Shown here in pieces: positions 824 to 22,248 of a stretch of DNA of 22,248 nt. The first letter of the stretch is position 1; every line of letters starts with the position of its first letter. The stretch comes from a virus, in IMG/VR virus record IMGVR_UViG_3300030012_001236, positions 1-22,248 of that record. One strand, written 5' to 3'. Under the pieces are notes generated by a model. It had not been told where the DNA came from. It made no database searches and saw only the letters and a program-made list of their open reading frames with translations. The position numbers and the translations under genes were made by a program.

Positions 824-1117
824 TTATATTCCGCTTAGTGTGTATTTCACTGTTATTTCTCGATAGGGTTTGATCTCTTCAAGTGTTGTTAGTATATACA
901 CTGAGCCTGCTTGTTTTGTTTTAATACTGTTGGGTTCTTCACTGTGATTATAGAATGCACCTAAAGGTGTTCTGTGTAGTTGTCCACAACATTCAAAGTG
1001 GCTTACACCTATTTCAGTTCCTGCTGGTATATAAGTTGTTGAAAACAGACCCAAGCCATGTATACTGCTGGGTCTAATTGTTACACTATCGGGTAGGGGT
1101 TTGTACTTCTTTGCCAT
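824..1117 (-). CDS. Compact SET-domain protein, probable lysine methyltransferase
   Basis: The 97-residue product carries the core SET-domain signature in order: HGLGLF at 20-25 (first part of the S-adenosylmethionine site), a short middle, YNHSEEPN at 56-63 (matching the family's NHSxxPN), and EITVKY at 87-92, where Y92 sits where the catalytic tyrosine is expected. SET proteins move a methyl group from S-adenosylmethionine to a lysine side chain of a protein. The usual domain is about 130 residues; this one is near the size of the small viral SET protein of chlorella viruses (about 119 residues). The frame is open further upstream to a GTG at 1165, but ATG 1117 with AAGGAG 11 bases before it is preferred. 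It overlaps the upstream gene by 32 bases. The target is unknown; host proteins such as ribosomal or nucleoid proteins are only guesses. Confidence 0.68.
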   Translation of the reverse strand: MAKKYKPLPDSVTIRPSSIHGLGLFSTTYIPAGTEIGVSHFECCGQLHRTPLGAFYNHSEEPNSIKTKQAGSVYILTTLEEIKPYREITVKYTLSGI

Positions 1118-1322
1118 TTGCCCATTTGCTCCTTGCTTTGCGATCCCACCATTCAGCTTCAACACCTTCAGTAGTTGTTATTTTGTAACCTGTAAGAGTG
1201 TTGCTTAGTCTTTTGATCATGGCTAGTTTCAGGATATCATTTAAGTTTTCTGTCTGTAGTTCTTTTCTATGTCTGTAACCAGTTTCATCATCAAACCAAT
1301 ATACAGTTCCTAGATATATCAT
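1086..1322 (-). CDS. Conserved-looking hypothetical protein (78 aa)
   Basis: ATG 1322 has AAAGGA 8 bases upstream. The product begins MIYLGTVYWFDDETGYRH, continues with a helical stretch (NLNDILKLAMIKRLSNTL) and ends in a basic, tryptophan-containing part (EWWDRKARSKWANG). No transmembrane segment or known catalytic motif is visible. The gene overlaps the SET-domain gene by 32 bases in another frame, so the two are probably cotranslated. It is the first clear coding frame downstream of the interrupted regulator and its promoter. No function is recognised. Confidence 0.65.
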   Translation of the reverse strand: MIYLGTVYWFDDETGYRHRKELQTENLNDILKLAMIKRLSNTLTGYKITTTEGVEAEWWDRKARSKWANGKEVQTPTR

Positions 1323-2470: not shown

Positions 2471-2959
2471 TTATACCTCTTGTTTTTTTCTGCGCCTGTG
2501 ATAAGGATCAACACCAAATTCTACATTATATTTTTTCATTAGTTCCTGTGCTCTTTCAAGAAGCGGATCATAACTTGCTTGATCAGGTCTTGTTTCTCTG
2601 TGATGTAGTGTATTGTTTGAATATTGTCGATAGGTGCCAGACTTGTGTCTTTGTGTAATCCTTTTCATATCATCCTGTTTAAGTTTACATAAAGGTTCAA
2701 GATCATTTCTTCTAAGCCATTTTTGTATGGGCACTACAACATCACTACATAGAATATATTGATTCTCCCAGCGAATTATCACAACATGACTGTGTTTAGG
2801 AAAGTCTAGATCGCTAAAAGGTGGTTGATCTTTTAGCACAACAAAAAACTTGAAGTCAGTATACTGGTGATCCACTGCTCTGAGTGCACCTTTTACAAAT
2901 ATTTTTGTTTTTAATTCTGTGTTCAGCACTTTAGAGCCATGAACATTCTTTCTGATCAT
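2471..2959 (-). CDS. Hypothetical basic protein (162 aa)
   Basis: ATG 2959 has AAAGGA about 11 bases upstream. The N-terminal part looks like a small mixed domain (KTKIFVKGALRAVDHQYTDF, KFFVVLKDQPPFSDLDFP, HVVIIRWENQYILCSDVVVP). The C-terminal part is hydrophilic and basic (LCKLKQDDMKRITQRHKSGT, then RRRKKQE at the end). It has no signal peptide or membrane segment. It lies between the terminator after the tail genes and the terminator at 2281-2317, with no clear promoter of its own, so it probably depends on readthrough from the late operon. The basic tail suggests nucleic-acid contact, which is inference. No family is recognised. Confidence 0.65.
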   Translation of the reverse strand: MIRKNVHGSKVLNTELKTKIFVKGALRAVDHQYTDFKFFVVLKDQPPFSDLDFPKHSHVVIIRWENQYILCSDVVVPIQKWLRRNDLEPLCKLKQDDMKRITQRHKSGTYRQYSNNTLHHRETRPDQASYDPLLERAQELMKKYNVEFGVDPYHRRRKKQEV

Positions 2960-2992
2960 TTTGATGTCTTTCCTTTACCTGGATACACTTTC

Positions 2993-3019
2993 AAAAAAAA
3001 GGCACTACATATAGTCCTT
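2993..3019 (-). terminator. Intrinsic terminator after the tail operon
   Basis: On the minus strand AAGGACTA pairs with TAGT-G-CCTT (one bulged base, 4-base loop) and is followed by eight T. An upstream segment, ATATAGTC (3052-3045), is fully complementary to GACTATAT (3016-3009), which contains part of the terminator's left arm. The two folds exclude each other, as in attenuators. Confidence 0.65.
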
Positions 3020-3025
3020 ATATTC

Positions 3026-3036
3026 TATTTACTGAA
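3026..3036 (-). repeat. Dispersed element TTCAGTAAATA, copy 4
   Basis: A full 11-base copy on the minus strand, in the loop between the two alternative stems of the terminator region after the J-like gene. Confidence 0.5.
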
Positions 3037-3060
3037 CCTTAACTGACTATATCCTGTGTC

Positions 3061-4431
3061 TTATATTTGTATACTAGATGTATATTCTTGAGCAAGAATC
3101 TTAATGGTATCATCTTCTGTAAGCACAATTTCCTGGACTCTAAATTTTTTATTTGTGTAACCTACAACAGGATGTGTAACATCAATAATATCACCTGCTT
3201 GAACATCAACTGCTGTATGTGCTGATGTAAAACTAATTGTAGTCTGGTTGCGGCTACTGTTCATAATCCAGGTTGCTAGGTTTCCTGCGATTGTTGCATC
3301 ACTAACAAGGGTTGTGTCCTGTTGTGCTAATAGTGTTGTGCCATTGTCTTCAGTCTTAAAACTACTGTTATCCACAACCTTTAGGTCATCATTAAAGTTT
3401 GTTGCTATGTTGTTAAAAGTAAATTCAACTTTGTTAAATTTTGCACTCTTAGGTGTTACACCTATATCAAATGCGCCTATAATGTTTGCTTCTGAAAAAC
3501 TAAACACTGAACTTTCATTCTGTTGTCTAGCTCTAAACTTGTATTTGCCATTATGATATGTAAGTATACCATTACATGCTGAAAGAATCTCTTCTACATT
3601 GTCAAACAGTCTTTGTCCTGTATCTAGGAAGCCATTAATCTTAAATCTGCTTGCCATGTAAGTTCTTGCACTAGCAAAACTTGCTAAATCAATGTCTGCA
3701 TCAGGAATGCCTTTGCCATAAGTTGTATTTGTCATGTAGTCTAACAAAACATCAGCAGGATTTTGATCAACTGAGGCAGTTGCTGACCCTACAGGATTTG
3801 TAGCAGGTCTAATCTTCTTGCCTGTGAATTCTACAAGTATTTCTGGTGCGGCACCATTATAATCATCATCAGTAGGTAATTTCAGTGCCATGTATGCAAT
3901 GCCGGTAAGTTTTCTATTGCTATCCCAGGTCCCTGAACCGATACTTGCTTGTAGGGTAGGATCTACAGTTTGTGTTGTAGTTCCTGGATAGAAAGCTATG
4001 TAATGACTGCCATACTTTGTAGTTTCAAAGTTTGCTAAACTATAGCCATCTGTGCCTACTGTAGTACTAGTTCCTGAACCACCATCTGACTGAGCATGCC
4101 AGACTAGTGTGTCACCGAAAAAGACTTTCAAAGGAGCACCTACTTCACCTTCACATAAAATTAGTGCTTGGTTAAGTATGTTGTTACCTGAACCACCGCT
4201 TCCATTAGTTGTGTTAATAAAAGCCCTAGTTCCTCCTACTCTCTGCCTTCCATAGACTACTGGGATAGGTTCATTGTTGCCCGATTTGTTAATTAGTATT
4301 CCGCTACTAGTAGGAGTTCCGCCTCTTCTACTTTTCTTTTTGCCAAATACTTTGCTTACAATAGCACTAACAATAAATTGAATAATTAGTTTCTTAATAA
4401 TAGGCGCAATAATAGGTATAAACTGTGGCAT
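3061..4431 (-). CDS. J-like tail-tip hub protein (456 aa)
   Basis: This looks like a short member of the lambda J / gene transfer agent gp15 group, which forms the central hub and tip under the tail tube. The product starts with a hydrophobic stretch (PIIAPIIKKLIIQFIVSAIV) and a basic turn (GKKKSRRGG). It continues with NEPIPVVYGRQRVGG, typical of the N-terminal J domain, then NPADVLLDYMTNTTYGKGIP and DNVEEILSACNGILTYHNGK, also typical of J hubs, and ends with a beta-rich domain near DVQAGDIIDVTHPVVGYTN. Usual J proteins exceed 1,100 residues, so the long receptor-binding C-terminal part is missing. ATG 4431 overlaps the stop of the upstream gene (TAATG) and has GGAGGA 7 to 8 bases before it, so it is preferred over the ATG at 4446. 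Confidence 0.75.
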   Translation of the reverse strand: MPQFIPIIAPIIKKLIIQFIVSAIVSKVFGKKKSRRGGTPTSSGILINKSGNNEPIPVVYGRQRVGGTRAFINTTNGSGGSGNNILNQALILCEGEVGAPLKVFFGDTLVWHAQSDGGSGTSTTVGTDGYSLANFETTKYGSHYIAFYPGTTTQTVDPTLQASIGSGTWDSNRKLTGIAYMALKLPTDDDYNGAAPEILVEFTGKKIRPATNPVGSATASVDQNPADVLLDYMTNTTYGKGIPDADIDLASFASARTYMASRFKINGFLDTGQRLFDNVEEILSACNGILTYHNGKYKFRARQQNESSVFSFSEANIIGAFDIGVTPKSAKFNKVEFTFNNIATNFNDDLKVVDNSSFKTEDNGTTLLAQQDTTLVSDATIAGNLATWIMNSSRNQTTISFTSAHTAVDVQAGDIIDVTHPVVGYTNKKFRVQEIVLTEDDTIKILAQEYTSSIQI

Positions 4432-21550: not shown

Positions 21551-21693
21551 TAACTACCTCCTAAAAATGGTGTTGCTAGTGTTGTCATTACAAAATGAAC
21601 TAGCTGATAGCCCCATGTAAGCAACAGATATAAAAAGCATAACTGCACTAGGGCTGTAACACTTTTTAGTAGCGGTAAGTATTCTTTTTTCAT
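21550..21693 (-). CDS. Small one-pass membrane protein (47 aa), first gene of the late operon
   Basis: ATG 21693 has AAGGAG 7 bases upstream and the TAA overlaps the ATG of the next gene. The product, MKKEYLPLLKSVTALVQLCF followed by LYLLLTWGYQLVHFVMTTLA, has a basic start and one hydrophobic segment (about residues 12-36). Size and topology suit a small holin or other lysis protein, or a membrane peptide acting on the host, but no family is recognised. It is the first gene after a terminator hairpin and so opens the long leftward operon. Confidence 0.62.
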   Translation of the reverse strand: MKKEYLPLLKSVTALVQLCFLYLLLTWGYQLVHFVMTTLATPFLGGS

Positions 21694-21725
21694 AGTAAGT
21701 CTCCTTGTTCCTTATATTTAGTATA

Positions 21726-21757
21726 GGAAAAAGCCCAGCACAAGGAGGCACCGGGCT
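21726..21757 (-). terminator. Intrinsic terminator upstream of the late operon
   Basis: On the minus strand AGCCCGGTGC and GTGCTGGGCT form a 10-pair stem (including wobble pairs) around CTCCTT and are followed by TTTTTCC. TATACT (21725-21720) comes next but lacks a -35 box at the right distance. Leftward transcripts that enter from the right would stop here unless modified. Confidence 0.6.
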
Positions 21758-21828
21758 AGAAGAACTCCCCCCAGCCCTTCATGCATGTATTTAACAAGGC
21801 TGTAGGCCTTAGAAATTTTTTTTGTAGC

Positions 21829-21857
21829 TTGACATCTGCACCCTAAATCTATATTGT
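21829..21857 (+). promoter_or_regulatory. Sigma70-type promoter, rightward
   Basis: TTGACA (21829-21834) and TATTGT (21852-21857) are 17 bases apart. An eight-T run (21816-21823) just upstream resembles an UP element. The 40-aa gene starts about 30 bases after the -10 box. Confidence 0.55.
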
Positions 21858-21887: not shown

Positions 21888-22010
21888 ATGAGCATGAGTC
21901 TAGAAGCATACAGAACAATGCTGGTAAATGCTGTGAAGTGTGGTGCAATCAGTGCTAAACAGGCAAGTAAACTTTTCAATACCTTTTTATCACAAAGGTT
22001 GACAAAGTGA
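21888..22010 (+). CDS. Small rightward protein (40 aa)
   Basis: This is the only convincing plus-strand gene. It has a promoter, AGGAG 7 bases before ATG 21888 and a TGA stop at 22008-22010. The product is MSMSLEAYRTMLVNAVKCGA followed by ISAKQASKLFNTFLSQRLTK: a soluble, probably two-helix, basic peptide. It lies head-to-head with the late operon, so it belongs to another, probably early, transcription unit. A second promoter's -35 box lies in its last codons. No family is recognised; a small regulator or host-directed peptide is possible. Confidence 0.62.
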   Translation: MSMSLEAYRTMLVNAVKCGAISAKQASKLFNTFLSQRLTK

Positions 22011-22026
22011 TAAACTGTGTTATACT
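21999..22026 (+). promoter_or_regulatory. Sigma70-type promoter of the small-RNA locus
   Basis: TTGACA (21999-22004) and TATACT (22021-22026) are 16 bases apart. The -35 box is built into the last codons (TTG ACA) of the 40-aa gene. Transcription should start near 22033. Confidence 0.68.
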
Positions 22027-22032
22027 GTGAAG

Positions 22033-22149
22033 ATATAGTGAAGGCCACAGTTCACTTGTAGAATTACTAAAGGTTGCGAGTGCAATCATTGTGGTTATTT
22101 CCTCGAAAGTGGGGGTCTAGTTTTGCTAAAAGGACTAGCCCCCCTTTTT
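22033..22149 (+). ncRNA. Probable phage small RNA (about 115 nt)
   Basis: The segment lies between a strong promoter and a strong terminator and contains no frame longer than a few codons with a ribosome site. Its predicted fold has three stems: AGTGAA/TTCACT (22037-22056), GGTTGC/GCAATC with a GAGT loop (22072-22087), and the terminator stem (22111-22143). Single-stranded parts such as GAATTACTAAA and TTATTTCC could pair with a target. The start and end points are inferred from promoter and terminator. It does not match tRNA, tmRNA, 6S RNA or a riboswitch class I know. Confidence 0.55.
22111..22149 (+). terminator. Strong intrinsic terminator, rightward
   Basis: GGGGG (22111-22115) and CTAG (22117-22120) pair with CTAG (22135-22138) and CCCCC (22139-22143), leaving one bulged T; an inner TTTT/AAAA pair extends the stem. 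TTTTT (22145-22149) follows. It ends the small-RNA locus. Confidence 0.8.
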
Positions 22150-22248
22150 GGTAGAAAAATTTGAGCGGTGTGTATGTCGCAGGATCGGCCGGCCATTTCT
22201 GGGCCTGAATCGAATTTCAATTTTCAAATCATTCTAAAATATTTTCCG
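22150..22248. other. Right edge, no gene, GC-rich patch
   Basis: No reading frame of note on either strand. GGATCGGCCGGCC (22182-22194) and GGGCC (22201-22205) form a GC-rich island in otherwise AT-rich DNA, including the perfect palindrome GGCCGGCC. The last 40 bases are very AT-rich. It might be a packaging or protein-binding site, or mark a junction. Confidence 0.4.

Follow-up and report, generated by a model that had tools for sequence, protein, structure and literature searches.

A candidate small RNA gene at the end of a 40-amino-acid reading frame in an uncultured marine siphovirus-like phage

In an uncultured, siphovirus-like marine phage, one locus combines a strong promoter, a noncoding stretch predicted to fold and a strong stop signal, and a small RNA of about 117 nucleotides (nt) is therefore very likely to be made there from a promoter of its own. 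The window analysed is the whole 22,248-bp IMG/VR viral record, a linear fragment, and the locus lies on the plus strand at its right end and is oriented divergently to the late operon. The reading we favour, and hold to be rather probable, is that the locus represents a small RNA gene at the 3′ end of a short rightward p40 unit, the terminator of which also guards an adjoining DNA site. The features concerned are the following:

21829-21857, plus strand: promoter-like site of p40, TTGACA-17-TATTGT (10/12 match)
21888-22010, plus strand: p40, a 40-aa ORF with a good ribosome-binding site
21986-22014, strand not given: dyad TTTATCAC-N13-GTGATAAA around the −35 box
21999-22026, plus strand: small RNA promoter, TTGACA-16-TATACT (11/12 match)
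22033-22149, plus strand: predicted small RNA, about 117 nt, its start placed by promoter spacing
22044-22095, plus strand: main 5′ hairpin, pair probabilities mostly 0.9-1.0
22111-22149, plus strand: intrinsic terminator, the strongest in the window
22145-22168, strand not given: 24-nt DNA motif TTTTTGGTAGAAAAATTTGAGCGG, with exact matches elsewhere

The preliminary description of this DNA had claimed a TTGACA-N16-TATACT promoter whose −35 box doubles as the codons TTG ACA at the end of the 40-aa gene, followed about 85 bases later by a strong terminator, and all of these elements were recovered. The −35 box (TTGACA, 21999-22004) and the −10 box (TATACT, 22021-22026) are separated by a 16-nt spacer, TG precedes the −10 box (extended −10), and in the p40 frame the −35 box is read as part of AGG TTG ACA AAG TGA with the stop codon at 22008-22010. 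The dyad around the −35 box is a possible operator, though it could be due to chance. Relatives of p40 were found neither in the related loci under permissive blastn nor in Pfam or PHROGs.

The terminator, composed of GGGGGTCTAGTTTTGCTAAAAGGACTAGCCCCCC (22111-22144) and TTTTT (22145-22149), is located 85 nt past the −10 box and ranked first among the U-tract hairpins on both strands of the window; such hairpins of −17 kcal/mol or lower are expected at a frequency of 0.017 per shuffled window. Scanning for promoters with a match of at least 11/12 and a terminator of that strength within 250 nt downstream yielded one pair in the window and none in 60 shuffles. No other strong U-tract terminator hairpin is present between 22010 and 22111. 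Since transcription from the p40 promoter would thus meet no terminator before 22111, the unit would also provide p40 with its 3′ UTR and terminator. A noncoding transcript with separate initiation and termination is well supported by the sequence, but to call the locus stand-alone, as had been done, goes too far, given the terminator in common with p40.

The RNA (22033-22149) showed an MFE of −42.2 kcal/mol (z −4.45), and none of 200 shuffles was as stable. Its MFE fold consists of the long hairpin at 22044-22095 and the terminator. Much of the significance of the fold is contributed by the terminator; the 5′ part without it showed modest structure (z about −2.1, 13/500 shuffles). The sequences of two further stems proposed ahead of the terminator, AGTGAA/TTCACT and GGTTGC-GAGT-GCAATC, are indeed present, but in equilibrium folding their pairing probabilities were about 0 and 0.01, respectively, and the hairpin 22044-22095 takes their place. 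The RNA remained below the Rfam gathering cut-off for every family, and a tRNA/tmRNA cloverleaf was absent from it. Direct repeats common to p40 and the RNA were estimated to be within chance.

That no useful reading frame lies in the cassette, as also claimed before, was confirmed: the longest ORF with a start codon comprises 26 codons (a six-frame check was also made), and Pfam and PHROGs searches with the reading frames of the cassette gave no match. A cysteine-rich stop-to-stop frame beginning RPQFTCRITKGCECNHCGYF was rejected, having neither a usual start codon nor a family match. It is highly improbable that a tiny peptide gene instead of an RNA gene occupies the locus, for example one starting with GTG at 22080 (MQSLWLFPRKWGSSFAKRTSPPFW): a weak AAAGG is located 6 nt upstream of this GTG, but the 24 codons would extend through the terminator hairpin, a family match is absent, and no relative shows codon conservation.

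The late genes are encoded on the minus strand:

21693-21550, minus strand: p47, first late gene
21550-21212, minus strand: p112, late gene
minus strand, after p112: late gene for a 372-aa protein
19894-19394, minus strand: TerS-like protein of 166 aa, named by position and reading of the sequence (PHROGs without match)
17689-16463, minus strand: TerL, a PHROG terminase
minus strand: portal, major head protein and tape measure genes of the late operon

TerL is 43-46% identical to its nearest cultured relatives, which are Vibrio and Pelagibacter phages. The phage also encodes a 113-aa SET-domain protein (824-1165, minus strand; PF00856, E 1.2e-7). Where the tail genes end, on the minus strand at 2217-2289, a perfect 12/12 promoter, TTGACA-18-TATAAT (2279), comes immediately after a strong terminator (about 2287) and starts a leftward gene block (2217-404).

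Relatives were collected by a TerL search of viral contigs, which yielded 32 contigs. Few contigs found with TerL, p112 or the TerS-like protein (p166) reach the junction in question: the p47 junction is covered only by L008, L016, L018 and the sister contig G013 (to which L014, L035 and L097 all belong), and a contig with a 99% identical TerL (L002) stops short of the small RNA region. L008, G013, L016 and L018 showed no sequence homologue of either the RNA or p40. Searches for a homologue of the RNA by blastn against phage records, in 27 related records and, under permissive settings, in all related loci were likewise negative, and the exact terminator pattern was not matched in viral contigs. 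The RNA lies opposite no annotated gene of the window, elsewhere in which it has only chance 11-nt complementary matches. Cofolding with 28 start regions of the phage gave a best value of −11.5 (21045-), which was reached by 1/100 target shuffles and 18/100 RNA shuffles, and none of these regions stood clearly above shuffles. Antisense pairing with the start region of p112 was favoured by RNAduplex, but this signal was lost once folding costs were counted. Target prediction against the phage's own messages gave no clear target with folding costs included, and the action in trans on host or late messages envisaged in the preliminary description is unsupported so far because no homologue, no covariation and no target was found.

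A scan of 775 kb of related viral DNA for promoter-terminator pairs without a gene revealed three independent cassettes, namely that of the window, one in G013 (L014 3842-4049) and a weak case in L047; two of the three sit at the p47/late-operon junction. The G013 cassette is located directly upstream of p47, with the late operon downstream on the same strand, and its −35 box falls within the 3′-terminal codons of the early gene before it (3499-3867), the product of which weakly matches families of DNA-binding proteins and regulators. Near its 5′ end the RNA, a 184-nt stretch (about 185 nt; fold z −6.15), has a long stem; it also contains two tetraloop hairpins of 8 bp each and a terminator carrying eight U. 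L018 has kept this terminator and, with changes in their stems, the tetraloop hairpins, whereas L016 has kept the terminator, and both contigs end inside the unit; further members of the sister-type terminator were not found. The RNAs of the window and of G013 show zero sequence similarity, and because similarity is lacking a function common to both cassettes can only be inferred. A GAGT/GAGA tetraloop common to both RNAs was discarded, its enrichment being too low to claim. The G013 cassette is directed towards the late genes whereas the window cassette points away from them, which argues against a cis-leader role common to both.

In L014, two adjacent early genes just before the sister cassette (2950-3867) are built of repeated units of the helix-turn-helix-like type YKGKTYRQWAQELGVHxETI..HLKxHGHL, and the divergent early region of L008 contains a tRNA-Arg(tct) gene. 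A further reading, which we consider quite unlikely, is that this group of marine phages keeps a slot for a small RNA at the early/late junction. Unrelated structured RNAs (117 nt here, about 185 nt in the sister), each started from a promoter placed in the closing codons of the final early gene, would fill it in different members and act in trans in the early-to-late switch.

The late-operon leader (window 21693-21815, minus strand; L014 4041-4206, L018 111-278, L016 71-248 and L008 1096-1271, plus strand) carries a hairpin of about 10-14 bp, the stem of which varies by lineage (window, L014/L018, L016, L008) and the loop of which, CCUUGU, is kept across lineages. A GGG(G)A run 5′ of the hairpin could pair with the loop, and TAAATA motifs flank the structure, both well upstream of it and close to the ribosome-binding site. 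Rfam gave no match for this leader, which resembles a conserved structured RNA or a late-promoter region and is possibly of greater interest than the small RNA locus.

The first five bases of the 24-nt motif TTTTTGGTAGAAAAATTTGAGCGG are the U-tract of the terminator. Exact copies were detected in four podovirus-like contigs, which belong to another phage group (L082 2692, L084 4643, L085 12383, L086 321), upstream of terminase genes; in L084 the genes for the small and large terminase subunits begin about 0.2 kb from the motif. In G013 (L035 1529-1593, minus strand) the first 22 bases occur with one mismatch inside a 66-bp match, and the 22-base pattern was absent from 84,980 bacterial and archaeal genomes. 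The position upstream of terminase genes suggests that the motif region is a candidate packaging site, an origin being possible as well. Beside the motif (window 22145-22205), an 8-bp palindrome is kept in the sister as a palindrome of different sequence (GGCCGGCC versus CAGATCTG).

A promoter, a short structured RNA and a strong terminator would also make up an attenuated leader. The promoter would then serve rightward genes located past the end of the contig, and the RNA would be the product of termination, as lambda 6S RNA is at pR′-tR′, until a phage factor of the Q, N or put type relieves that termination. This is possible, if on the unlikely side, and has its place because only 99 nt of the record follow the terminator. 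A TATAGT resembling a −10 box (about +2 to +7) and the dyad around the −35 box would fit such a leader, as would the sister cassette placed before a late operon and the rightward genes that L008 has past its divergent promoter. However, the late operon here is on the opposite strand, the 99 nt past the terminator are noncoding and carry the conserved DNA motif, the predicted fold differs from a two-stem put-like fold, and the sister and window cassettes are oriented oppositely relative to the late genes. We regard it as unlikely that the terminator is the only functional element, ending the p40 mRNA and insulating a packaging or origin site, with an incidental promoter and a functionless RNA. 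The U-tract forming the first five bases of the motif would agree with this, as would a 5′ part weakly more structured than shuffles and an RNA for which no homologue was found, but a promoter that is extended and close to consensus speaks against it, as does the occurrence of only three independent cassettes in 775 kb, two of them at this junction.

According to the favoured reading as a small RNA gene, host RNA polymerase would initiate from the strong promoter embedded in the final codons of p40 and produce a transcript of about 117 nt, modelled as a long hairpin and then the terminator, which would end p40 read-through transcripts as well. We infer that the RNA is transcribed, stable and active in trans, like small RNAs that arise from 3′ UTRs by way of an internal promoter, and the terminator would keep rightward transcription off the adjoining conserved DNA site, perhaps a packaging site. 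The sister phage possesses an analogous cassette of unrelated sequence at the same junction. What the sequence itself shows is a start signal, a predicted fold, a stop signal, the lack of a gene, the terminator common with p40 and the sister analogue.

The 6S RNA of phage lambda is the pR′-tR′ leader of the late operon: a promoter that looks constitutive, placed where the last early gene ends, gives a short RNA and is followed by a terminator. The sister contig L014 has the same layout and is the only case in which the late operon follows at once on the same strand, whereas the RNA of the window is directed away from it; a lambda 6S-like model therefore fits the sister and not the window, where the late genes are on the other strand. 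The put RNA of HK022 comprises two stem-loops, about 70 nt (PMC9378689), and is similar in layout in that a structured RNA lies between an early promoter, which it follows directly, and a terminator. In the window RNA, however, one long hairpin dominates, and instead of a pair of neighbouring stem-loops immediately behind the promoter we found local stems that pair at about 0 to 0.01. Lambda OOP RNA, which is antisense to cII (PMC12197685), also is a short phage RNA, delimited by a promoter of its own and a terminator, but no annotated window gene lies opposite the RNA described here. Small RNAs derived from 3′ UTRs by means of an internal promoter are known from bacteria and phages, for example MicX of V. 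cholerae (PMC9438474). As in that type, the promoter (21999-22026) sits within the upstream ORF or at its end and the RNA would end at the Rho-independent terminator in common with the upstream mRNA; here, in contrast, the parent is a 40-aa phage orphan. Phage and 3′-UTR small RNAs are a kind already known (PMC9438474, PMC12197685), and the positional parallel in the sister phage is moderately interesting.

The defined promoter and 3′ end, together with the parallel sister cassette, make this locus a concrete small RNA candidate. To our knowledge, few small RNAs from marine phages are known. If expressed, the RNA may offer a route into early-to-late gene switching or into the guarding of the packaging site from transcription.
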